NCBI RefSeq assembly: GCF_000231115.1
Contig: NW_006889834.1
Span: 124,001-188,000, forward strand
Length of the DNA: 64,000 nucleotides
Source of the DNA: Vittaforma corneae ATCC 50505
Lineage: Eukaryota; Microsporidia; Nosematidae
Direction of reading: 5' to 3'
The translations under genes were made by a program, and so were the position numbers. This document shows, one piece after another, positions 19,876-38,233 of this stretch. The notes below the pieces were generated by a model. It ran no database searches, was not told the origin of the DNA, and saw only the letters and a list, made by a program, of their open reading frames with translations. The first letter of the stretch is position 1, and every line of letters starts with the position of its first letter.

Positions 19876-20096
19876 GCTGGATCAGCAGCTAATTAAAATG
19901 TTACTTTTAGCATTTGTTGTTTAAGATTGATGATATTAGATAAGCAATATAAAGACATTGTACAGTTAAAGCTATATTGATGGTTTGCAATCTACTTATA
20001 CACTAGCTATGCAAATAGCAGATGAAATACTCGTTCATTTGATTTGCATTGCTCAAATATTTGTTACGACTTTTATCTTCAGCTTTGACCAAGCCC

Positions 20097-23000
20097 ATGG
20101 ATGGATCAAATCTTGTTCAAGAAAGTCTCCTTGACTTGCAGTTTGGATATGATTTTTACTACGGCTTTGAACCAAAGCACGGATGGCTCCTGTCATATAG
20201 CATTGAAAAGAACAAGAACGACAGCCTAAACGTGACATTTTATTTTGTGGATGAGTTTTCTAATAACTTTAAAGTGCAGGTGCCATACTTTCCTTCAATA
20301 ATCGTTGAGTGTAAGGAAGAACTAAGTAGTGTAGAAGGATATCTTAAAAAGCGATATGAGGGATGTATACAAAGCACTGAAGTAGTTGAGAAAATCGATG
20401 TTAAGGAGTATAATCATCTTAACAAACCACCGAAGAAATTCTTAAAACTATACTTCAGGACAGAAACATCATTTCAAGAGTGCATAAAAAACTTAAAGGA
20501 TGTTATTCTAGAAAGCACCAAAAACAGGTACAAAAATGAAATTTATTCAGATTTATTCCAGGAGAAGTGTGCGAATGATATAGCAAGTGAGATCATTCAA
20601 ATCCACGAGTACGACATACCTTATGAAATTCACGTTGGAAATGAACACAAAATACGATGCGGATGCTGGTATGAAATATCATATGATGGTGAAAGCTATA
20701 AAATTGAACTCGACAAGCAGAAGATTGCATATCCAGACCTACGGATATTTGCGTTTGACATCGAAACCACCAAACCACCCTTAAAGTTCCCAAATCCCGA
20801 GTCTGATCAGGTGATGATGATTTCAATTATGACTGACGAGTTCGGCGAACTAATAACTAATAGACAAATTGTCTCAGAGGACATCCAAGTGTTTGAATAT
20901 CATGCTAAAGATGACATGCGGTGCATGTTCAGGGTTTCTAACGAGCCCTCGGAGGAAGCCCTGTTAATACGCTTTTTGGAAGTAATCTTGGAACACAGGC
21001 CACACATTATAACAACATACAACGGTAGTTTCTTTGACTGGCCATTTATTTGCAAAAGATTAAGCAAGTACAATATGAATTTATTTAATTCTATACAGTT
21101 TAAAGAGGTAAACGAATACTTTGATTGCCCCTTCATAATTCACTTGGACTGCTATAAATGGGTTAAGAGAGACTCGTACTTGCCAATGAATAACCAGGGC
21201 CTGAAGGACGTGGCGCGTATAAAACTTGGGTATTTTCCAGATGAGATAGATCCCGAAGACATGTTTAGGCTAGCTTCAGAAGATCCACAGAGACTTGCCT
21301 CGTATTCAGTCTCTGATGCAGTAGCGACCTATTATCTTTATCTGAAGTACGTGCATTCCCACATTTTCTCTGTGTGTTCTTTGATACCATTGCCACCTGT
21401 GCAGGTTTTGTGTAAAGGCGCCGGAACCCTTTGCGAGTCTCTTCTTTTAGCTGAATCTGTTAGCTACAAAATTCTTGTTCCACTTAAAAAAAGAACTGAT
21501 GGTCTCGAGTACTACAAAGGCCGTTTGATTGAAAATCTTACGTATGTAGGTGGCCATGTAGAGTCTCTTAGAGCTGGCATCTACAGGTCTGACTTTTACC
21601 AGGAATTTAATATAGACGATCAGGTGGTTGAGCTTATTATCGACAATCTTGACCAAATATTAGAAGATTACACCAGCTGTACTGATTACCAAGCAAAGAA
21701 GGAGCAATACATTTGCGAGATTAAAAGTTGCATAGGCAAAATAATGAGTAAGGGATGTATCTACCATCTGGATGTTGGTGCTATGTATCCTAATATTATA
21801 CTTACAAACAGGCTACAGCCGATTTCGGTTGTAAACGATGACGTTTGCATTAGATGTGATTATAACGATGAGAAAAATCAATGCAGAAAGAAAATGCAAT
21901 GGATTTCAAGGGTTGAGTATATGCCACCAGAAGCAAATGAAATTAATATGATTCGGAACCAACTTGAAAATGAAACATTTGCAGATTTTAATAGTGGCAT
22001 ATTAGAAAAAGTTGCCTATAAAGACTTGCCTGAAGGCAGGAGAAATGCAATATTGAAAGATAGAATAAGTGAATACTCAAAGAAGATATACAAGAGAGTT
22101 AAAAAGGTGGAGGAAAACAAAGAGGATATTTATATCTGCCAAAGAGAAATACCCTTTTATGTTGAAACTGTCCGGAAGTTCAGAGACCAGAGATACGTTT
22201 ACAAGAATCTGTACAAAAAGGCAGCTCAAGAGTATGAAAAGAACCCAACGAGTGAGAACAAAAAGAATCTTGTTGTTTATAATAGCTTGCAGGTTGCATA
22301 CAAATGTATTTTAAATTCGTTCTATGGATATGCCATGAGGGAGGGATCCAGATGGTTTTCTTTGGAGATGGCAGCTACGGTGTGCAATGTTGGTGGCCAA
22401 ATTATCAGGCTTGCAAAGGAGCTCGTTGAAAAGATAGGAATGCCGCTTGAGCTTGATACTGATGGCATTTGGGGAATGTTGCCCATCAGGTTTCCACACA
22501 CAATTTCATTTAACGGCAAGAGTGTTTCAGTTCTCAGTCTGATTTTAAATTATTTTGTCTGTAAAAAGTTCACAAACCATCAATACCAAGTAGCTAATGG
22601 TCACGGTGGATTTGATGCAGTGCAGCAAAATTCAATATTTTTCGAGCTTGATGGTCCGTACAAAACTATGGTCATTCCGTCGTCAACAGAAGAGAACAAG
22701 CTGCTAAAAAAGCGCTATGTGGTTTTTAATGAGGATAATAAGATTGTAGAACTCAAAGGATTTGAGCTTAAGCGCCGGGGCGAGTTGCATTTTATTAAAA
22801 AATTCCAAGAGGATATTTTCAATCATTTTAATGATGGTACAACCCTAAAAGAATGCTACGATTCGCTGGCAAGTATTTGCAACTACTGGATGGGCATTAT
22901 TGACCAACAAGGAGGTCCGTTGGATGATGAATCAATATTTTACCTGTTTTCCGAGTCAAGAAATATGTCTAAGAGTGTTGAAAGCTATGCAAATAGAAAA

Positions 23001-25517
23001 TCAAATATATTGAGCACGGCCAAAAGGCTTTCTGAATTCCTGGGTGATGACATTCTCGAAGAAAAGCTCAAGTGTGAATTTATTATCAGTAAATTTCCAA
23101 CCAGCGCCCCGATTGTCGACCGTGCCATACCTGTTATGATATTCCGTAGTGCTGAAAAGGATTTTTATCTAAAAAAGTGGTTGAAAACAGCAAATAATAC
23201 AGATCTAAGGGATATATTGGATTGGGGTTATTATAGAAAACGTTTTGAAAATATCCTTCAGAGGCTGATCGTTATTCCAGCATATTTGCAAAACATAGAG
23301 AATCCGATTCCAAGTGTTAGTCTTCCGAATTGGATGAAGGATGCATCGAAAAGAGAAAGATTGGAGTTTTCCGTAGTCAAGGACATTGAAGATTCTGTTG
23401 TAAAGAAGAACCTTTCTGATGTGTTCTACACAAAAAATCAGTCAAAAAAACCAAAAACTAATACAACGATCACTGGCGATTGTATGATGCATGTGTCTGT
23501 TGGTGTTTCGGATAATATTAAAACAGCAGTCGTCAGTCTGAAAAATTCAGCGTTTCTGGAATATATTGCTACAAATACATCGAAATGGATGGAGTTTTAC
23601 ACTAATAAGCTTTCATTTGCATCAATAGTAGCCAAGGTTGAGGTTGTTGATCGAAATTATGTCACAATCAAGTACTTGAATGGTAAATCTGTGAGCTTAG
23701 ATTTTGTTTGTGATTTATATCTTGATGTTTTCAACAAAAAGCACTTTGCTGAAAACCAGATTGTGAAAATGTACCTTCCCGACCAGAATCTCTCGAAAGA
23801 TCTGGTAAAAATTCAATCGGCAGTAAGTGAAGTGGAATCTAAAAAGTACTCAAAGTTCTTGAATCATTTTTCAATTATGAAAACATATAACAGATTTAAA
23901 CCCGAATACCAGTTTTTCAATCAAACAGATCTAGTGTGTGGAGCCGTTGACTGCGTTGTAATATCCTCATTTAACTATTTAAAAAAGCCAGCCTTTGTCA
24001 TTACAACCACCGAAACGTTTATAGTATCGGATACTAAACATCCTAATGTACTGAAGTTTAGTTTGAAGGATTTCATTGACATTCGTTTAAAAAATCATAG
24101 AGTTGTTGTTTTCAGCAAAGCAGATGCTAATTCCACAACAATATCTGATTCTTTTAAAAACTTTTATCAGCTCGCAGTTGATGTAGTGGCAACCTCGTTC
24201 TTAGAAACATTTGAAAACCTAATTAAGATTCACATTGAATTTAATTCTGAATTGAAAAAATGCTTCAGTAATCTCCTGGATATTTCAAAGTTCGCAAAAA
24301 TTCCTATTATGAACATCGATGACTCCGTTCTTGACTTGATGCTATACAGACACTTTTTCAGAAACGGTGTAATGCCTGTTCAAGACATTGAATTTTCACC
24401 TAAATTGATCAAGGATGAAACACATAGGTCGGGGTATTATAACTCATATTGCATCCAATTCGAAAGCTCCAATTCACTTATTTTATCCATTCTTGAATAC
24501 AAGGCAACAGCCTCAGATATTTCCTTATATCATGGATATCAAAGGAAAGATTTTCAAGTATTTAAAACCTTTCTAAAGGATTTGGTATTAAATGCTTTGA
24601 GGGGAAATGATGGACTCAAATCACTACTCTTGAAAATTCCATATTGGGCTAAAAAGGGCTCTGGAATCATTTCTTCAGATCTTCGAGAGGTCATTGAGAT
24701 TACTCATCAGCGATATAATATTGGACTGGTTTCAGTGCTGAAGGAGAACCATATTAAGATTGTTTCAGCTTCAAAGGATTTGATGATCATAGATACCGAA
24801 AAACCAACCTTGGACGGATGCAACTCTTTTGTTGAGTATTTGAAGAACAAAATATCATCTATTCCAGGATATGAGTTATTGAACTTGAAGGTTTTGAGGA
24901 TATTTGGAAAGCTTGGGTTTGTAGATCAAACGAATTATTTCTTCTATGAAAATAACGAGTTTATTTCTGGATTTTCTGAATGTAAAATTCCACTGTCATT
25001 TCTGAAATTATACTTTTCAGACGCTGAAGTTAAAAACGAGGACGTCTATAGCTTAGTGAAGCATGTCGACAGAAAAACCCTCAAAGCAATGCTCCGACTG
25101 CTTTCCTATAAACGGGATATTCATGGGCTTGCATCAAATTGCTACCGACTAATGAGATGCAGTGAATTTGACGACCTTGATGAGCCAGAGTTTAGTTTGA
25201 CAGTATATTGCAGAAAGTGCGGATTTGAAAACTTTCTCAGAAAGCACTGCATTAAATGTTATTCAGTAATCGACCAAGAGCAAGTTAAAAAAGAAGCAAG
25301 TGAATATCTTAAATATTGTTGGAAAATGCAAATATTCGGGAACAGGTTCTGCAACAAATGCGGTTGCTGTGAAGAGAAAAAGCTAAAAGAGTACTGTTGT
25401 TGTGGAGGAAAGCTTGTCAAAAAAGAATATTTAGAAGATGTGTGCAAAATACAGAATTTTGTTTCATCAAAGGTTTTTGACTGTGAGGTTGAAAAGTTTA
25501 AAAGTTTTTTCAAATAA
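20097..25517 (+). CDS. POL2: DNA polymerase epsilon catalytic subunit
   Basis: The 1806-residue leading-strand polymerase starts at a CCCATGG. The frame extends 48 bases upstream to an ATG at 20049 without that signal. Exonuclease motifs are intact: FDIETT (about 220), NGSFFDWPF and YSVSDAVATYY. Polymerase motif A (DVGAMYPNIILTNRLQP, about 560), motif B (CILNSFYGYAMREGSRW) and motif C (ELDTDGIWGMLP, about 787) are present. The Fe-S cysteines of the catalytic domain are visible as CIRC, a third C nine residues on, and ICQRE. The inactive C-terminal half is retained, shortened, and ends in two Cys-rich modules (CRKCG...CIKC and CNKCGCC...CCCGG). Yeast Pol2 has 2222 residues. Confidence 0.97.
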   Translation: MDGSNLVQESLLDLQFGYDFYYGFEPKHGWLLSYSIEKNKNDSLNVTFYFVDEFSNNFKVQVPYFPSIIVECKEELSSVEGYLKKRYEGCIQSTEVVEKIDVKEYNHLNKPPKKFLKLYFRTETSFQECIKNLKDVILESTKNRYKNEIYSDLFQEKCANDIASEIIQIHEYDIPYEIHVGNEHKIRCGCWYEISYDGESYKIELDKQKIAYPDLRIFAFDIETTKPPLKFPNPESDQVMMISIMTDEFGELITNRQIVSEDIQVFEYHAKDDMRCMFRVSNEPSEEALLIRFLEVILEHRPHIITTYNGSFFDWPFICKRLSKYNMNLFNSIQFKEVNEYFDCPFIIHLDCYKWVKRDSYLPMNNQGLKDVARIKLGYFPDEIDPEDMFRLASEDPQRLASYSVSDAVATYYLYLKYVHSHIFSVCSLIPLPPVQVLCKGAGTLCESLLLAESVSYKILVPLKKRTDGLEYYKGRLIENLTYVGGHVESLRAGIYRSDFYQEFNIDDQVVELIIDNLDQILEDYTSCTDYQAKKEQYICEIKSCIGKIMSKGCIYHLDVGAMYPNIILTNRLQPISVVNDDVCIRCDYNDEKNQCRKKMQWISRVEYMPPEANEINMIRNQLENETFADFNSGILEKVAYKDLPEGRRNAILKDRISEYSKKIYKRVKKVEENKEDIYICQREIPFYVETVRKFRDQRYVYKNLYKKAAQEYEKNPTSENKKNLVVYNSLQVAYKCILNSFYGYAMREGSRWFSLEMAATVCNVGGQIIRLAKELVEKIGMPLELDTDGIWGMLPIRFPHTISFNGKSVSVLSLILNYFVCKKFTNHQYQVANGHGGFDAVQQNSIFFELDGPYKTMVIPSSTEENKLLKKRYVVFNEDNKIVELKGFELKRRGELHFIKKFQEDIFNHFNDGTTLKECYDSLASICNYWMGIIDQQGGPLDDESIFYLFSESRNMSKSVESYANRKSNILSTAKRLSEFLGDDILEEKLKCEFIISKFPTSAPIVDRAIPVMIFRSAEKDFYLKKWLKTANNTDLRDILDWGYYRKRFENILQRLIVIPAYLQNIENPIPSVSLPNWMKDASKRERLEFSVVKDIEDSVVKKNLSDVFYTKNQSKKPKTNTTITGDCMMHVSVGVSDNIKTAVVSLKNSAFLEYIATNTSKWMEFYTNKLSFASIVAKVEVVDRNYVTIKYLNGKSVSLDFVCDLYLDVFNKKHFAENQIVKMYLPDQNLSKDLVKIQSAVSEVESKKYSKFLNHFSIMKTYNRFKPEYQFFNQTDLVCGAVDCVVISSFNYLKKPAFVITTTETFIVSDTKHPNVLKFSLKDFIDIRLKNHRVVVFSKADANSTTISDSFKNFYQLAVDVVATSFLETFENLIKIHIEFNSELKKCFSNLLDISKFAKIPIMNIDDSVLDLMLYRHFFRNGVMPVQDIEFSPKLIKDETHRSGYYNSYCIQFESSNSLILSILEYKATASDISLYHGYQRKDFQVFKTFLKDLVLNALRGNDGLKSLLLKIPYWAKKGSGIISSDLREVIEITHQRYNIGLVSVLKENHIKIVSASKDLMIIDTEKPTLDGCNSFVEYLKNKISSIPGYELLNLKVLRIFGKLGFVDQTNYFFYENNEFISGFSECKIPLSFLKLYFSDAEVKNEDVYSLVKHVDRKTLKAMLRLLSYKRDIHGLASNCYRLMRCSEFDDLDEPEFSLTVYCRKCGFENFLRKHCIKCYSVIDQEQVKKEASEYLKYCWKMQIFGNRFCNKCGCCEEKKLKEYCCCGGKLVKKEYLEDVCKIQNFVSSKVFDCEVEKFKSFFK

Positions 25518-26105: not shown

Positions 26106-26427
26106 TTACGAGGGTAAGAGTTTATTTGAAGCAAAAATTTTGTCTCTCAAAAGTGCTAGTATAAACAGATAGGCAACTAGAAACTCCATGGACCAATAAA
26201 TCCGAGGATTGCCTATTCTTAAATAAACATAGTGGTTGTATTTAAGCTTAATACCACGGAATTGTATAGTACCATATGCATACTCTGTCTGTAGCTACTA
26301 TTGCTGGTATGGATTACCTTGAGGTCGAGTGCAATACATTAGCCATGGTCAGCGTTAAGGACTCAACCAAAGATCCAATACATATTCGACCTGTGGCTTA
26401 TTTAAATTTTGGTGATGTTTTTATGGA
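26106..26427. other. Spacer between divergent genes, holding a 51-codon ORF
   Basis: An ATG at 26276 opens 51 codons that end at 26431, overlapping the MSH5 start as ATGA. It lacks a C-rich signal and a recognisable product, so I do not call it a gene. Nothing else stands out. Confidence 0.3.
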
Positions 26428-28149
26428 ATGAATAAATCTTCCATTTTGTCTATTTGTAACGAAAGCAACAGAGTTGGAATGTGCTACTACGATGGAAACA
26501 AATACAGGATATTCGCTCCCTTTTACGACTACTTTACTCTTTCTAAGGCATTAAAAATAATTGATGAATGTTTTCCGGACATTATTATTGCTTCCGTTTC
26601 CGAAGTATTTCAAGAAATGCTGAAAAGTAAATATGCTGAAAAAGTAATATATATGCATACAAGATCAAAAAATATAGCCTTTAAAGATATTGATAAGCTG
26701 GAAAATGCAACCATTCGATTACTAAGTAGTTTTACGAACCATTATCCCTTAGTTGGTGTGGAAGGCGATAAGATTGTTGGTTATGCGGGGGAATACATAA
26801 TAGAAAAGGTCAATGCTGGGGCATTCTTCATAGACAATTCTGTAATTTCAAATATAACGGATTTTAAGAGGCTAAATTTGATAGTTAAAAACGCAATTAC
26901 ACGGTTTGGAAGATGCACTTTGGTTCGCTGGATTTCACAGCCACTAATATCAGAACAGGAAGTTGCTGAAAGAAGATCAAAGATCGAGTACATGGTTTGC
27001 AAGGTTCCAAAGCTGTTGAAGCTGTTGAGAAAGTGCAAAATTAACTGTTTTGATCAAAAAATTAATTTTTCCAAACTGAAGCTGTTTATCAAGTCAGCTT
27101 TGATAATACAAAAGCTATTGCATGAGAAGCTAGCTCTTCCAAATAGAAAGAGGTATTTAAAATTGTACAAAATACTCAGAATTTTTGATAAAAATGGCAT
27201 ATCTAACGGAAAGGATAGGAAGCTTGATGAGCTAAGGAGCTTCATTGATAAAATACCACTAATCCTGGAAAATACAACCAGAAAACTATCTCAAAAATAC
27301 CAAATACCCATTAGCTCAGTTTACATTCCTGGTGCTGGGTTCTTTATTGAAAGTGGACAGTCGCTTCAAGATACCATTTTTACAGTTAAGGACAAGTTCT
27401 ACTGCAAAAATGAGGATATGAAAAACCTTGATGCCAAAATTGGCGATCCCTACGAGCGAATTAACGCTAGAGAAATTGAAATTTCTATAAGAGTTATCGA
27501 GAAAATCCACAAAACAAAGCTATCACCACTATACGATTTTATCGGCGAGGTTGACTCGTGTATTTCACTATACTTGAATACAAATGGGTCATTTACAGAA
27601 TGTTGTTCATCCTCAACATTTGAATACCAAAACATATCGTTTCACAAAACATCTGTGCTTTTAGGCGGGTTTAACACAATAGATTTAATCGAGTCTATTA
27701 TCATTAATCAGATTGGGGGCTGTGTTGACCAATCATCTGCCAGATATCCGCTCTTTAAAAGGCTAGCTTTCAAAATTCAAAATGAAAAGCATGCCAGTGT
27801 TCACAACAGTGCATTCCAGAACGAAGTAATCCAGCTTTCTAAGATATTTAGACACAGCGACGAAAATACTCTGTGTTTACTTGAAGGCATTGCAGAGTCT
27901 ACGACACCAACAGAAGGACTAGACATATTCTCATCATTTATTCAAAAAATTACTGCACGATTCCTGATAATCAGTACAAGCTATGAACTTTGCGATCTTA
28001 AAAATATTAAAAACTTGGTAAGTGTTCATTTCTATCAACTTAAAGATGGAAAGCCCCATTTGTTAGATGGTAAAGCAGAATTAGACTGTGAGCAGTCTGG
28101 AATATGCGATGAGTTCGAAGAATACATTCAAATGACCAGCCACCAATAA
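26428..28149 (+). CDS. MSH5: MutS homologue of MSH5 type with degenerate ATPase site
   Basis: The 573-residue product aligns with MSH5 from its start (VGMCYYDGNKY) through the MutS core (FGRCTLVRWISQPLIS, ERRSKIEYMV). It has the MSH5-like VYIPGAGFFIES and LDAKIGDPYERINAREIEI segments. MSH5 pairs with MSH4 to stabilise meiotic recombination intermediates. The ATPase domain (about 400-535) still follows the family pattern, but the P-loop is replaced by GGFNTIDL (about 412) and Walker B by LCLLEGIAES (about 482). ATP binding and hydrolysis are therefore unlikely. The protein is roughly 250-300 residues shorter than animal or yeast MSH5. The frame is intact and long, which argues against simple decay. 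Confidence 0.8.
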   Translation: MNKSSILSICNESNRVGMCYYDGNKYRIFAPFYDYFTLSKALKIIDECFPDIIIASVSEVFQEMLKSKYAEKVIYMHTRSKNIAFKDIDKLENATIRLLSSFTNHYPLVGVEGDKIVGYAGEYIIEKVNAGAFFIDNSVISNITDFKRLNLIVKNAITRFGRCTLVRWISQPLISEQEVAERRSKIEYMVCKVPKLLKLLRKCKINCFDQKINFSKLKLFIKSALIIQKLLHEKLALPNRKRYLKLYKILRIFDKNGISNGKDRKLDELRSFIDKIPLILENTTRKLSQKYQIPISSVYIPGAGFFIESGQSLQDTIFTVKDKFYCKNEDMKNLDAKIGDPYERINAREIEISIRVIEKIHKTKLSPLYDFIGEVDSCISLYLNTNGSFTECCSSSTFEYQNISFHKTSVLLGGFNTIDLIESIIINQIGGCVDQSSARYPLFKRLAFKIQNEKHASVHNSAFQNEVIQLSKIFRHSDENTLCLLEGIAESTTPTEGLDIFSSFIQKITARFLIISTSYELCDLKNIKNLVSVHFYQLKDGKPHLLDGKAELDCEQSGICDEFEEYIQMTSHQ

Positions 28150-28421
28150 AAGCATGGTCCACAAGGCATTATTGATATTTAACTGCTGTTACGTGCTGTA
28201 TTATGGATCATTTGATAGACAATAGTTTATTGAAAATGCATGGTACTAGCTAGTATTCACGTTATAGCAAAAATTGTAATAAGGGCTTCAACTAGGCTGA
28301 ATTTAAAGCTTCTATTTGTTGCTTGTCCAATGCATACGTGCATTCATTTTAATGCATCTATTCTCAAGAACGCTTTCTGTATTGCTGCTTCGTGTAAATT
28401 TTGGCTACATCCTTTACACCC

Positions 28422-30851
28422 ATGAATAAAGACACTGCTTTGCAATATCTACACAACGCACTTCAGCCAGATGGAAATATTCGTGCCGAAGCTGAAAGAG
28501 CGATTAAGTCTTTTATTCAATCCAGCTTTCAGGACTCTCTGACATTGTTCATTCAAATAATCTTTGACACGTCTGTTCCTCAGCCAAGCAGACAAATTTG
28601 CTCAATCATTGTGAAGAACTGCCTGCATTCAAAAAACCAGAGGTTGCAAAAGAGCTATGAATCCAACTGGCTTTCATGTCCTATTGAGTTCAGATCAAAC
28701 TTTATTAGTCTTTTGAACAAAAATCTTGACTGTAAGGAACAGAGCATATTTTCTAACATAACGAAAATATACGGTTCCATCATCAGAATTGAAACATCAA
28801 ATAGAACAGGCATAGATATTTTAAAAACCCTGCAGGCTGGCATTTCAAATCAAAGCTTTGCAGTGGGTATTTTAGAGTCCATTGCGCATGCATGTGATCA
28901 ATTGTACGAGGAAACATTGTATGAATTTGGAAATGAAAAGCATGACATCTTTAATATCAGCATGTTTTACTTAAAGCCTGGCGCAGGTCCATCTAGAAAC
29001 ATTATATTTTCAACTCTTCGTTGCATTTTAAGCTGTCTTGAGGTTTTTGAGGATATTTTAAGCTCTGAAAATGCCAGGCATGAGTTTATTTATAAGATTT
29101 TTGCCACAGAGAAGCCTGATTCTGAAGTGCTAGAGATTAGTCTTGAGGTAATTAATAGATTTGTCGATGTATATAGCTGCTTGACTGATAGCGAGTTAAT
29201 GCCTATTTGCCAGTTTTATCTGTCATATTTTGACAGCAAACACGACGAGGTTCCTCTTCAGATATTTGACTTTTGGTCTTTGCTGTTGGAGCTGGAAAAA
29301 TACACGATTTTAAAGCCGCTTGTATCAACACTTGTGCCCAACCTGCTGCTGTGTATAACAAAAGAAGACGTTTGTGATTTATCGCCTTCTCCACACAAGG
29401 CAGCATGCTCACTTTTGATGGATATTACCTCGAAAATGAAAATTTTACTGCTGAGCGACCAAATGTACCAGAACTTTATTTTGAACAACCTTAGTTCATC
29501 AGAATTAGAGAAGCACGCAATCGGAGCAACTGCGCTTGGCTGTATCTGCACTGCTGGCTCTGATGACTTTCTGTACCAAGTACTTCCAATATTGATAAAT
29601 GATCTGGGACATGATGAATGCGTCAATGAGGCATTGTTTGCTATTGCAAGGGTGTGCGAAAACGATATATCACTAGCCGTTAATTTTCTCCCAACAATCA
29701 TACAAAAAGTTGGCATTTTGATAGAGTCAAGAACTAAAGTTGCAGTGAACGCAGTGCTCGTTTACAACTCAATACTATTGTCCATGAAGGCTGATATTGT
29801 TAAAGAAGTTGAAAACATTGTGCTTTTCCATTATTCTGACATTCTGTCTATCCTCGTTTATAGGCTAGACCAGGCAGAGCCCAGTGAATATGAACTAAGA
29901 TCAGTTCTAAACTTGACTCTATCAGAACTAATCCTGTGCTGCCCAAGCAGTCATAAGAACATTCTTGACCAGCTTCAAAGCTATCTTCTCACGAAAGTGA
30001 AGTCTGCAATCCAAACAGTCAAAACGTCCGTAGACCAGCAGTTTTTAGTTTTTGATGATGTTTTGTGCAGCTACATTGTACTTCTTGAGTCATGTTTGAG
30101 TATGAAGAAGATATTTGATGCCGACGAAATAGCTGAAGTCTTTATACAGTGTCTTTTGTTACCCAAGATGCTTGTTCAAGGAGAAATTTACATTGTGATC
30201 TCAAAGCTTTTAACTCACTTTTCGATATATTTGAAAAGATTTATTCCATTTGCATTGCGGGACATCTCTAGTGATGAAAGCTTTGTTCTCAAATCAGCGC
30301 TTAATCTCCTTTCTGATTGCGCCATTTTATTAGAATCGAATTTCATTGAATTTACAAATACTGTTATACCAGCGCTAGCGAACGCCATCACATCACCTGA
30401 TGTGTCCTTAGAAATCAAGCCCAGGATCATTGTGTCACTAGGAGATATTGCATTGGCCGTTGGAAAAAGCTTTGAGCCATATGTTTCATTGTGTGTAATG
30501 TTGCTAACTCAAATTAACACACTAAGCCGCGAGGGAGACGAGGACTATGTTGATAATTTGCGAAAGGCAGTAATTCAACTATTCAGCTGTCTCTTTTTAT
30601 CTGTTGGAAATACCGATGAAATGCGTCTATCCCTAAATGAAATACTGAGCAATATTAAAGTTGCCATACAACATGATAAAGAAAGTGCATATGTAAAGGA
30701 GTCTCTTAACATAATCTGCGACATCCAGACTATTTTTGGAACTGATAAAATTACCGAAGACTGGGTAGTTAAGTTTTTGCATGAGGTTATAAGGAATTCT
30801 ACTGGAAATACTGGTCAAAAGGCAAAAGAGATATTAGAAACGATATATTAA
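28422..30851 (+). CDS. KAP95: Importin beta-1 (karyopherin Kap95)
   Basis: This 809-residue HEAT-repeat protein starts at CCCATG (28422); the frame is open 21 bases further upstream without an ATG. The importin-beta N-terminal domain (QYLHNALQPDGNIRAEAERAI, then RQICSIIVKNCL) is followed by about 18 paired helices. The IFDFWSLLLELE segment matches the FW...E motif of the family. It carries NLS cargo, usually with importin alpha, through nuclear pores in a RanGTP-regulated manner. Length is close to yeast Kap95 (861). Another importin-beta family member cannot be fully excluded. Confidence 0.85.
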   Translation: MNKDTALQYLHNALQPDGNIRAEAERAIKSFIQSSFQDSLTLFIQIIFDTSVPQPSRQICSIIVKNCLHSKNQRLQKSYESNWLSCPIEFRSNFISLLNKNLDCKEQSIFSNITKIYGSIIRIETSNRTGIDILKTLQAGISNQSFAVGILESIAHACDQLYEETLYEFGNEKHDIFNISMFYLKPGAGPSRNIIFSTLRCILSCLEVFEDILSSENARHEFIYKIFATEKPDSEVLEISLEVINRFVDVYSCLTDSELMPICQFYLSYFDSKHDEVPLQIFDFWSLLLELEKYTILKPLVSTLVPNLLLCITKEDVCDLSPSPHKAACSLLMDITSKMKILLLSDQMYQNFILNNLSSSELEKHAIGATALGCICTAGSDDFLYQVLPILINDLGHDECVNEALFAIARVCENDISLAVNFLPTIIQKVGILIESRTKVAVNAVLVYNSILLSMKADIVKEVENIVLFHYSDILSILVYRLDQAEPSEYELRSVLNLTLSELILCCPSSHKNILDQLQSYLLTKVKSAIQTVKTSVDQQFLVFDDVLCSYIVLLESCLSMKKIFDADEIAEVFIQCLLLPKMLVQGEIYIVISKLLTHFSIYLKRFIPFALRDISSDESFVLKSALNLLSDCAILLESNFIEFTNTVIPALANAITSPDVSLEIKPRIIVSLGDIALAVGKSFEPYVSLCVMLLTQINTLSREGDEDYVDNLRKAVIQLFSCLFLSVGNTDEMRLSLNEILSNIKVAIQHDKESAYVKESLNIICDIQTIFGTDKITEDWVVKFLHEVIRNSTGNTGQKAKEILETIY

Positions 30852-31277
30852 ATGTTTTAAGAGTTATGACGCAGTTTGATGCTTAATAGTTTACTTGTGT
30901 GGTCGTTTATGGAAAGTTCTGTGTTCATGTTTTGCCATTGGTGCATAGTTAAAGAGTACGCTTGGTACGACGTCATTTTACAGTTGCTCAAAATCCTAGA
31001 AAAGAAATTTCAGATTATGGAATAAGCGACTGTGCTTGAATGAGCTGTTGCGAAAGGTGTGAAGAAAGCAATGACAAGGCAAGATAAATTATAGAATAGA
31101 TTGTGCTTTCACTCGCACCAAATTTGCTGTGCATGAAAGTTATTTTGGAGTATTAAAGTATTATAGACCTTGATAGGCCAATTGTTAAATGAAAACCATG
31201 ACAGTAAACTGGGATTTACTATACGAGACCTGCGGATTTTCACGACTTCTCAAAATTTTATCTTTGTGACAGCCCAG
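30852..31277. other. Intergenic stretch
   Basis: Spacer upstream of the cyclase-like gene. The gene's frame is open back to 31170 but contains no ATG before 31278. A 38-codon ORF (30909-31025) has no start signal or recognisable product. No RNA gene is visible. Confidence 0.35.
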
Positions 31278-33662
31278 ATGGAACCCAAACTAACCGAAGT
31301 TATTCTGAAAACAACCGAGACAATAAATGGCTATAAGATGGTTAAAATGTATCATAATCGAGCAGAAATCAATTCTAAGATCAGTGTTTATCTTGAAATT
31401 GATTTGTACGATTGCAAAAATGATTTCATAAGAACGGAAAGCTTTAGGGGAAGTTTGGATTCGACAGTAAAGGATATAAAGGCGATATTTACAGAAGATA
31501 TTAATGTTTTCATTCATGATCACGGGGCAATGTATATTCTTGATGACTCTCAGCGGCCTTTGTTCAAATGCTTTGAAATATGCAAGCATGCAATAAAATC
31601 ATCATTCAAAACATTTGTAAAAGCTAAATTAAAGCCCCAACAGATCACATTTCTTCCTGGAGGAATTATCAACTTTTATATGCTAAGGAAGTTGATTGTA
31701 GAACACATCCCCATACATTCAATTTCTTTAGAGCATCTTAGATTTTTAAGATATTTAAAGCTTATAAATAACAATTTGAAATCAATTTCAATGCCAAAAA
31801 ATATGCTCGAGTTTTGTGACCTGAGAAGCAATTGTCTAAAATGCTGTGCTGTCCAGTCAAAAGTTTTGATCTTGCAAAACAACGAAATAGCAAAGTTTGT
31901 CTCGAGGTTTTGTTTTAAATACTTAAACCTTTCCAATAACCCACTAAAGACAATCGACTGCAGCTGTGAATTTTTGAATATCAGAAATACAGAAATAGCA
32001 CATTCTTTGGAGTGTGATTCAAAAATAATACTCGCCGACGGTGTAGAAAAGATTAAAATAGGCAAATGCCCCAGCATGAGAGTGCTTTATATAAGCGATT
32101 GCCAGCTCACACAAATCGGAAATGTAATACAAAATTTGAGGCTGTTCAAGGCTAGAAATAACTATTTCCAGAGTTTGCCAAAGCTAAAGAAGTGCGCGGT
32201 TATTGACGTTTCTGGCAATTTTTTAGAAAGTATTAGGGCTTCGAATGTCGTTTTTTTAAATATTTCAAAAAACCAGGTCAGAGAAATAGATTTGAAAAGA
32301 TTCGCCTCTTTGCAGCATCTTAATCTTTCATTTAATCCGCTGGAGAAAATCTTCAATGAAAAAGCTGTTAAACAGCCAAGGTCCATAATACTAAACAGCT
32401 CAACAAACTTAACCTCCACGGTTTTAACGTACAAAAGTGTCAAACGGCATGACTGTGCCAAAAGAAATTTTTTACTAGCGCAGCACAAGATGGAAACAGC
32501 TATTGGTGGCGTGCCTATAACAATCTTTATTCTATCAAAATCAATTGCAAAGCTGGCAGCTTGTGAAATCTTTTCTTCAGCTCTTAGCAGGTCTGCACAT
32601 ACCAACTCACTGCTTGACATATTTTGTGACTTCTCTGAATACTGCTACAAAAAACTGTGCGCCATGGAGCCCAGAATTGAACTGTCATTCACATTTATCA
32701 CGAGCAGACATGTGTTTCTGAGAAGCTTTTCCTTGCCTCTTTTTTTCTGTAATTTTTCTGAAATGGACGTTCTTGTTGAGCCTGAAAACATTAGAGTATT
32801 CAATAATGTCTCAAACTGGTGTACATTTCCAATCTTGTGTAGATACCAGCCATTGATTACAAAGAGAAGCTATTCATTTTTCAGACACAAGGCCGACTAC
32901 AATGAACTATTTCAGTTTAATGATTTCTTTTGTGCAAAGACGTTGGAGTTCTTCGTTGCAAATACGCCAGAGTTTTCTTCCACACAAAAATCAGATTTTG
33001 GTATTGAATGCAAACTAGTCAAAGAAATCCACACAAAATTTTATCGCGAAAACTTCATGAAACGTCTTCAGGAACTGATGTCTCACCACTCCAATCCACA
33101 GTATGAGCTTCTTGGATTTAAGAATATAGACTTCAACATAAATCACAATGGATTAGACTCGGCAGGGCTTTCCACCACCAACCCTGTCTTTCTGTACATG
33201 CAGTTGCATTTTGAATCGTTTATTGATCAAATTTTATGGGTAGAAGAGCTAAATTTAGTTCAGATTATTGATTTCTACGCCAAGGTGTTCCGTGGAAGGG
33301 TGGTTGAAAAGAACTATAAACTATTCATCATTGGATTTAATAACCCACTCCATTCGGCCCTGTTTGGATTAAAAATCCAGAAAATTTTGAGACCAGTGGG
33401 TATTGAGGTTGGCATTGGAATTGCAGATGATGTGGTATTCAGAACTGAGCAGGATGGCATCATGTACTTTGGTGGGCCTGTCTTTAATAAAACATCGCGA
33501 ATAGCAAACCTGGGCATTGGCGTGTTCTGCTGCGGATGTGTCAAGCTTTTTTCGCCCTTAATTGAAACGATAGATGAAGGTGAGAGATACTTGAAAGGGT
33601 TTAATAAGAGACATAGAATATTTTCTCTCAAATTAACGAATGTCTACGACAATCTACAATGA
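31278..33662 (+). CDS. Fungal adenylate-cyclase (Cyr1)-like LRR protein, catalytic residues lost
   Basis: The 794-residue protein starts two bases after CCC. The order of parts matches fungal adenylate cyclase: an N-terminal RA-like region, leucine-rich repeats (about 155-385; LRYLKLINNNLKSI, YLNLSNNPLKTI, LQHLNLSFNPLEKI), a divergent middle where Cyr1 has a PP2C-like domain, and a class III cyclase homology domain (about 630-775). In the last domain, YFGGPVFNKTSRIAN preserves the family's Gly-Pro and the Asn/Arg pair. The metal aspartates are gone: the FTD segment reads FESFIDQI and the GD of KTEGDAF is replaced (EKNYKLFIIGF). It may therefore act as a scaffold or regulator and not make cAMP. 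Confidence 0.7.
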   Translation: MEPKLTEVILKTTETINGYKMVKMYHNRAEINSKISVYLEIDLYDCKNDFIRTESFRGSLDSTVKDIKAIFTEDINVFIHDHGAMYILDDSQRPLFKCFEICKHAIKSSFKTFVKAKLKPQQITFLPGGIINFYMLRKLIVEHIPIHSISLEHLRFLRYLKLINNNLKSISMPKNMLEFCDLRSNCLKCCAVQSKVLILQNNEIAKFVSRFCFKYLNLSNNPLKTIDCSCEFLNIRNTEIAHSLECDSKIILADGVEKIKIGKCPSMRVLYISDCQLTQIGNVIQNLRLFKARNNYFQSLPKLKKCAVIDVSGNFLESIRASNVVFLNISKNQVREIDLKRFASLQHLNLSFNPLEKIFNEKAVKQPRSIILNSSTNLTSTVLTYKSVKRHDCAKRNFLLAQHKMETAIGGVPITIFILSKSIAKLAACEIFSSALSRSAHTNSLLDIFCDFSEYCYKKLCAMEPRIELSFTFITSRHVFLRSFSLPLFFCNFSEMDVLVEPENIRVFNNVSNWCTFPILCRYQPLITKRSYSFFRHKADYNELFQFNDFFCAKTLEFFVANTPEFSSTQKSDFGIECKLVKEIHTKFYRENFMKRLQELMSHHSNPQYELLGFKNIDFNINHNGLDSAGLSTTNPVFLYMQLHFESFIDQILWVEELNLVQIIDFYAKVFRGRVVEKNYKLFIIGFNNPLHSALFGLKIQKILRPVGIEVGIGIADDVVFRTEQDGIMYFGGPVFNKTSRIANLGIGVFCCGCVKLFSPLIETIDEGERYLKGFNKRHRIFSLKLTNVYDNLQ

Positions 33663-37070: not shown

Positions 37071-38233
37071 TTATAGCTCCATTCCTGGCAAGATCAAGGG
37101 TGTCTCAGCAACATATAGTGGCTGATTAGAAACAAAGCAGTAAACCAGACACAGCACTATTGCACCTAACACCGATATCATGAGCAGTATTGCCGAAGCC
37201 ATGTATGTGAATCTATGATTAGAATCAATGGAAANNNNNNNNNNNNNNNNNNNNNNNNNNNNNNNNNNNNNNNNNNNNNNNNNNNNNNNNNNNNNNNNNN
37301 NNNNNNNNNNNNNNNNNNNNNNNNNNNNNNNNNNNNNNNNNNNNNNNNNNNNNNNNNNNNNNNNNNNNNNNNNNNNNNNNNNNNNNNNNNNNNNNNNNNN
37401 NNNNNNNNNNNNNNNNNNNNNNNNNNNNNNNNNNNNNNNNNNNNNNNNNNNNNNNNNNNNNNNNNNNNNNNNNNNNNNNNNNNNNNNNNNNNNNNNNNNT
37501 TTTGTATGCTTTCATGATATTTTTTTGCCTTCTCAAATTCCTCGGCACAAAGATATGTACCTTCTGGGAACAGCAATGGGTTCAAGAATCCGCCTTCTTG
37601 TATTGTTTTTTCACAGCTTTGTTGCAAACTTTCAAGATCGTTGTTAACTTGATTCGGATCGCTGGGCTTTCCGTTTCTCGCGAGGAAAACTGAATCAAAG
37701 GCCTCTAACAGATATCCAATAAATGGCGCCTTCCTCAATGAGGCTTTCATTGTGATCATAAGGTTATCAAAATATCCAAGTTGCTCTATCGTATAGGAAA
37801 CAAACATCCAATCAAAATCGCTGACGTGATTTGAGATTGTGATAAAATGTGAGGACCGTAGATTTTTTGGCACATTACAGTAGATAACGGTAAAGCTCTT
37901 TGAGAACCAAAACCTAAGCATTGCGTATCCTAAATGAAAGATGTAGTATTTCATTCTTCGATATATACTTTTTTGAGCACTTCTAGCCAAGCGGATGTGT
38001 CTTGCAACAAATACGATTGTCATCGCCATCAACAGATGGATGATAGCTATTGGAATTCCCACACAGAGATACAAAATGCATTTAATTTTTTGTATCATCT
38101 CCCCCTCCTTTTCGGTAAAATTTATTACATCCCCTTTCAAAAAAATAAAAACCAATAGAATTAAAAGTAATGTTAAAATAGAAATCAAACATAGAATGTG
38201 GAACAAAATAGATAAAAAGCACTTTACCTTCAT
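37071..38233 (-). CDS. Lysophospholipid acyltransferase (AGPAT/LCLAT-like), interrupted by assembly gap
   Basis: This membrane protein carries two N-terminal hydrophobic spans (about 5-33 and 50-78), then the PlsC acyltransferase motifs NHVSDFDW (motif I, NHxxxxD) and FPEGT (motif III). It transfers acyl chains to lysophosphatidate or lysocardiolipin-type acceptors. The layout resembles AGPAT3/5 and LCLAT1. Sequence is unknown at 37235-37499. Beyond the gap, the nominal frame stops at 37178. A different frame stays open to a TAA at 37071-37073 and encodes a good membrane span (ASAILLMISVLGAIVLCLVY), which fits the C-terminal span of this family. The gap is therefore probably mis-sized. Confidence 0.75.
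37235..37499. other. Assembly gap (265 N)
   Basis: A run of 265 N bases inside the acyltransferase gene. The length is unlikely to be exact, because the reading frames on the two sides do not agree. Confidence 0.99.

Follow-up and report, generated by a model that had tools for sequence, protein, structure and literature searches.

MSH5 together with MSH4 (MutS-gamma) normally forms an ATP-driven clamp on DNA. Among ABC proteins, TAP1/TAP2 and CFTR are examples in which one site is degenerate and a single consensus site is completed by the signature of the other half, the degenerate half usually still binding ATP; these proteins are, however, membrane transporters, and we know of no MutS-family case of one degenerate site. 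MutS-beta and MutS-alpha (MSH2 with MSH3 or MSH6) are similarly ATPase dimers in which a signature-helix serine acts on the opposite site. According to the passages of published work on which we draw throughout, the signature loop of each human MutS-beta subunit projects to the opposite site, with MSH2 S723 and MSH3 S950 helping to close that site on ATP, and Walker motifs are found in both MSH2 and MSH3 (PMC12231599). The asymmetry reported for MutS-alpha is one of nucleotide affinity and not of site loss (PMC2928781), and that reported for yeast and human MutS-gamma makes the MSH5 site the more sensitive or tighter-binding one. Here we describe a gene of the microsporidian Vittaforma corneae ATCC 50505, located in a stretch of 64,000 nucleotides (the window; contig NW_006889834.1, positions 124,001 to 188,000), that encodes a 573-residue MutS homologue, most likely MSH5 to judge from its sequence. 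It resembles MSH5 of yeast, mouse and human MutS-gamma in having no domain I, in matching yeast D527 and D532, and in its overall MutS fold, but its ATP-binding motif is gone.

The loss is common to a group of six proteins. Five relatives of the V. corneae protein were found, one of them from Glugoides intestinalis, with identities of 39-47%; in both searches, scoring was confined to the 7,996 candidates with the most words in common. The Walker A motif GxxxxGK[ST] is present in all 69 MutS proteins fetched and in 0/6 of the MSH5 group, none of which retains the complete Walker B DE pair or the switch histidine. Measured as conserved columns (against 36 of the 69 MutS proteins), the six keep 1-3 of 8 in the P-loop, 0-1 of 2 in Walker B and 0-2 of 7 in the histidine region. 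A net shortening of approximately 30 residues, affecting the P-loop and the segment that precedes it, is also common to all six (domain V alignment with 68/69 MutS proteins, P0033 dropped; lengths measured for 57/71 rows). A preliminary description of the locus had reported that both Walker motifs were lost, placing GGFNTIDL at the P-loop (residues 413-420, 27664-27687), LCLLEGIAES at Walker B (482-491) and TEGLDIF downstream (495-501). Each of these positions holds, and the intact P-loops in related species that it named as evidence to the contrary did not appear in the five relatives found. As the losses and the shortening are shared by five other proteins, a recent lesion, recent decay or a sequencing error in this gene can be rejected. 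The exact site of the old P-loop is ambiguous: MAFFT sets a K-[ST] stretch, a few residues earlier, on GPNMxGKS and follows it with a five-residue insertion, while a structure model places the site at the turn of residues 413-416. The literature passages make no mention of Walker motif loss in microsporidian MSH5, and the main text of PMC12558613 contains no match to 'msh'.

The reading frame itself is intact, with an ATG start, 573 codons and no internal stop. All six proteins have full-length frames with the start methionine in alignment column 1, and 87/573 positions are invariant, in agreement with the uninterrupted frame described previously. Pfam MutS_V matches at 31.6 bits (cut-off 30.2) and MutS_III at 33 bits, slightly below its cut-off of 34.1; no MutS_I match was obtained at E values up to 10. 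Homology to the MutS core (domain III) and domain V, with domain I absent, is as expected of the MSH5 orthologue group.

The earlier identification as MSH5 is borne out by the lever region only. With approximate reference sequences for yeast and human MSH5 and human MSH4, a profile of residues 250-395 (lever/clamp) ranked yeast MSH5 first and human MSH5 second of 77 sequences (39.7 and 24.1 bits), compared with 16.0 bits for the best MutS and 8.2 bits for human MSH4. A whole-protein profile showed no MSH5 preference, placing the yeast fragment 5th and human MSH5 63rd of 77. Profiles of the N-terminal part, domain III and domain V likewise failed to favour MSH5, the human sequence coming 73rd with domain III and 75th with domain V. 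Within the lever region, D335 and D340 correspond to yeast D527 and D532, listed respectively as class 1 (Msh4/5) and class 3 (Msh5 only) residues (Table 1 of PMC2928781). Both are invariant in the six proteins, and 38 other rows (36 MutS and the organism's own MSH2 and MSH6) have no D; the MutS rows carry E in 36/36 and, again without any D, G in 22/36. This mapping rests on the approximate yeast fragment, which, when anchored at D527, fits the published D532, I537, D539 and L548 in 4/4 cases but is shifted by two residues in the 480-490 region. When other published residues were mapped by eye, D433 and R436 were found in 6/6 and 5/6 of the group, although both also occur in nearly all 36 MutS rows; Y480 is kept in 5/6, Y486 is F in 6/6, and D539, Y661 and D680 are kept in 1/6, 0/6 and 3/6.

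Conservation indicates that the dead ATPase domain is under selection and not decaying, because two of its stretches rank first and second of 564 ten-residue windows: the helix following the lost P-loop (residues 422-431) and the post-Walker-B loop (488-497), which we equate in position with the D-loop of ABC ATPases. The signature helix start comes 66th, followed by the former Walker B (275th), the P-loop (388th) and the histidine (445th). In the signature helix start, S461 is present in 5/6 and F463 and E466 in 6/6. S461 aligns with MSH3 S950, so that the signature serine is retained in 5/6, its action in trans being a prediction.

The V. corneae genome (2.90 Mb, 35 contigs) was searched for a partner with the MutS_V and MutS_III profiles, yielding four MutS genes: MSH5, an MSH6-like and an MSH2-like gene (best solved matches MSH6 and MSH2, respectively), and a fourth taken as the MSH4 candidate. 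A fifth, weak MutS_V match lies in an ABC-transporter-like frame and was discarded. The MSH4 candidate (L003, G000:C1:9731-13081) is located on the same contig as MSH5, approximately 140 kb away. Its conserved cis residues are kept at 7/8 in the P-loop and 5/7 around the histidine, with both residues of the DE pair present, but it has 0/12 conserved residues of the signature region and 0/9 of the post-Walker-B region; when it is aligned with Taq MutS alone, a leucine likewise falls at the signature serine. By sequence, the candidate is thus the mirror image of MSH5, with cis motifs kept and trans motifs lost. It is split, around 1276-1357, into two overlapping frames, of which the public record P0076 is the 542-residue N-terminal part; the C-terminal frame has Walker A and B intact and no further stop. 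A protein search with the candidate returned only the same protein, and no relative's MSH4.

We consider it slightly on the probable side that MSH5 is here a conserved pseudo-ATPase that completes the only ATP site of MSH4 in trans, giving a one-site MutS-gamma meiotic clamp. The stricter version, in which reciprocal degeneration has made this arrangement obligate in V. corneae and its relatives, the single site drawing its cis half from MSH4 and its trans half from MSH5 and each subunit having lost the other half, is more tentative and falls somewhat short of probable. In a MutS dimer each site combines the cis residues of one subunit with the signature of the other. The ancestor of the six proteins would have lost the ATP-binding core of MSH5, namely the P-loop and the segment before it, after which Walker B and the histidine drifted, while selection presumably kept the fold, the signature helix start and the post-Walker-B loop. 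MSH5 most likely still pairs with MSH4, which alone would bind and hydrolyse ATP, its site being closed in trans by S461 and neighbouring residues of MSH5; the product would be a one-site clamp on meiotic recombination intermediates. The sequences themselves show the losses, the fact that six proteins share them, the selective retention and, in a single MSH4 candidate, cis motifs that are intact beside trans motifs that are lost; the pairing, the trans-activation and the meiotic role are what we infer. With the cis residues of MSH5 lost, the MSH4 signature would be without a target and therefore free to drift, whereas the MSH5 signature is proposed to be retained because it still serves the MSH4 site. 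The losses observed follow this pattern.

Several points weigh against this proposal. One relative has G in place of S461, two have A or M in place of T462, and the six proteins keep only 2-5/12 conserved signature and 2-4/9 conserved post-Walker-B residues, so that what is retained is a core and not the whole motif. The trans role given to the post-Walker-B loop is one that comes from ABC ATPases. The MSH4 candidate is a single one, a break lies in its frame between core and ATPase domain, and its label was assigned by elimination, as its similarity to the approximate human MSH4 sequence did not exceed that to other MutS proteins; the frame break may be a sequencing error, a programmed shift or decay. 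None of the five relatives found among the 7,996 scored candidates has an intact P-loop, and others that do may have been missed. Finally, yeast msh5-G648A is null even though the protein still binds Msh4, msh4-G639A being null too (PMC2928781), and engineered loss of ATP binding by mouse MSH5 blocks crossovers, the authors suggesting that both sites need to be intact for full function (PMC6553527). A one-site MutS-gamma would therefore be surprising, since the MSH5 site is essential in yeast and mouse.

A purely structural MSH5, which would tether MSH4 to DNA or to further proteins of meiosis and take no part in the ATP cycle, is an unlikely but serious alternative, close to the selected, non-ATPase structural partner of MSH4 proposed in the preliminary description. 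The Walker loss and the maintained frame agree with that proposal. The conserved stretches would then reflect fold and packing only, and packing alone could explain the two top windows; the modest rank of the signature start, the non-universal S461 and the few signature residues kept also fit. A plain structural role nevertheless appears too passive, because it does not predict that the signature serine is kept in MSH5 and lost in the MSH4 candidate: at the signature helix start, S persists in 5, F in 6 and E in 6 of the six proteins, and the reverse pattern of loss in the candidate would be unexpected.

We regard it as improbable that MutS-gamma as a whole is decaying, the MSH5 site having gone first and MSH4 now breaking, with both genes on their way out as in E. 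cuniculi, where MSH4 and MSH5 are among the four core meiosis genes missing (list in PMC5701793). The broken frame of the MSH4 candidate and its degenerate signature and post-Walker-B loop are what decay would produce, but the six full-length MSH5 frames with their invariant positions, and the C-terminal MSH4 frame with both Walker motifs intact, are not, and a sequencing error may account for a single break seen in one assembly. Least probable is weak residual ATP binding by MSH5 through a relic phosphate grip. The idea arises from a K-[ST] pair close to the old P-loop in 6/6 proteins (5/6 in the GKS column of the MAFFT alignment, which sets the stretch on GPNMxGKS); P0002 has GKS, while P0004 and P0006 both have GxxxxKKS. 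These features count against a complete loss of binding. The idea is opposed by the absence, from all six proteins, of a complete GxxxxGK[ST] and of a DE pair, by the approximately 30-residue shortening before the P-loop, and by the model, in which the K-T of P0001 precedes strand 408-412 and reaches into its beginning and is not at a helix start.

The layout of the protein is given in Table 1. The structure model used is an AlphaFold2 prediction from 44 rows, whose MutS rows bias it toward the MutS fold; a first run with six rows was poor (predicted local distance difference test score 51.7, predicted template modelling score 0.30). In most full-length rows, residues 1-14 onward of the model align with MutS/MSH2 residues from approximately 117-146.

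Table 1. Features of the V. corneae MSH5-type gene (window positions).
Feature	Residues	Position	Strand	Basis
MSH5-type MutS homologue without consensus ATP-binding site	573 amino acids	26428..28149	+	open reading frame, Pfam, relatives, structure model
N-terminal part, domain II-like, no mismatch-binding domain I	1-130	26428..26817	+	Pfam without MutS_I; model alignment
Core and lever/clamp, MutS domains III/IV	131-375	26818..27552	+	MutS_III; profiles; model
DxxxGD block (D335, D340), yeast Msh5 D527, D532		27430..27447	+	invariant 6/6
Degenerate ABC-ATPase domain V	376-573	27553..28146	+	MutS_V; alignments; model
Former P-loop per model: strand 408-412, four-residue turn GGFN replacing GPNMxGKS	408-417	27649..27678	+	
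Helix after lost P-loop, ESIIINQIGG	422-431	27691..27720	+	top-conserved ten-residue window, rank 1/564
Signature helix start, SAFQNE	461-466	27808..27825	+	S461 aligned to MSH3 S950
Former Walker B, LCLLEG	482-487	27871..27888	+	complete DE pair 0/6
Post-Walker-B loop, IAESTTPTEG	488-497	27889..27918	+	window rank 2/564
Switch histidine position, here T517	517	27976..27978	+	H in 0/6

An open reading frame of 51 amino acids (26276-26431) shares four bases (ATGA) with the start of MSH5. It was considered as an upstream exon, which is unsupported because Pfam finds nothing in it and the start methionine is common to the six proteins. Upstream lies what we take, by eye, to be a DNA polymerase epsilon-like gene (20049-25517), and downstream an importin-beta gene (28401-30851). 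Further along the window, positions 31170-33662 encode an 830-residue protein with leucine-rich repeats, whose C-terminal part resembles by eye a degenerate form of the adenylate cyclase domain known from fungal Cyr1; Pfam reports no cyclase there. An acyltransferase gene (37178-38233) is interrupted by consecutive N, translated as X, which represent an assembly gap or masked stretch. A 391-residue N-terminal piece of another gene on this contig is identical to part of VICG_00010 of V. corneae ATCC 50505. Elsewhere in the genome, the MutL-type DNA_mis_repair family gave two near-equal matches, L013 (G000:C3:126937) and L014 (G000:C1:25542), each with an in-frame TGA and possibly representing a duplicated, broken MLH/PMS gene; a third match, below the cut-off (C3:5398), has a clean frame of 710 residues.

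The genome contains SPO11, HOP2, MND1, HORMA and RAD51 family matches above their cut-offs. Among other microsporidia, passages of published work report three of seven core meiosis-specific genes in E. cuniculi, upregulation of MSH4 and MSH5 in sexual stages of Edhazardia aedis, and an MSH4 that is present and not expressed in Vavraia culicis (PMC4435813, for the latter two species); V. corneae and Glugoides are both placed in Enterocytozoonida (PMC13174016). Microsporidian meiosis is described as having no validation beyond morphology (PMC12558613), and the present finding has a bearing on it. The microsporidian arrangement, if functional, would invert the yeast and human MSH4-MSH5 asymmetry, and its MSH5 would be the first conserved MutS-family pseudo-ATPase known to us. 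It offers a natural experiment on what each MSH4-MSH5 ATP site does: if the complex works, a single site would be enough, namely that of MSH4.
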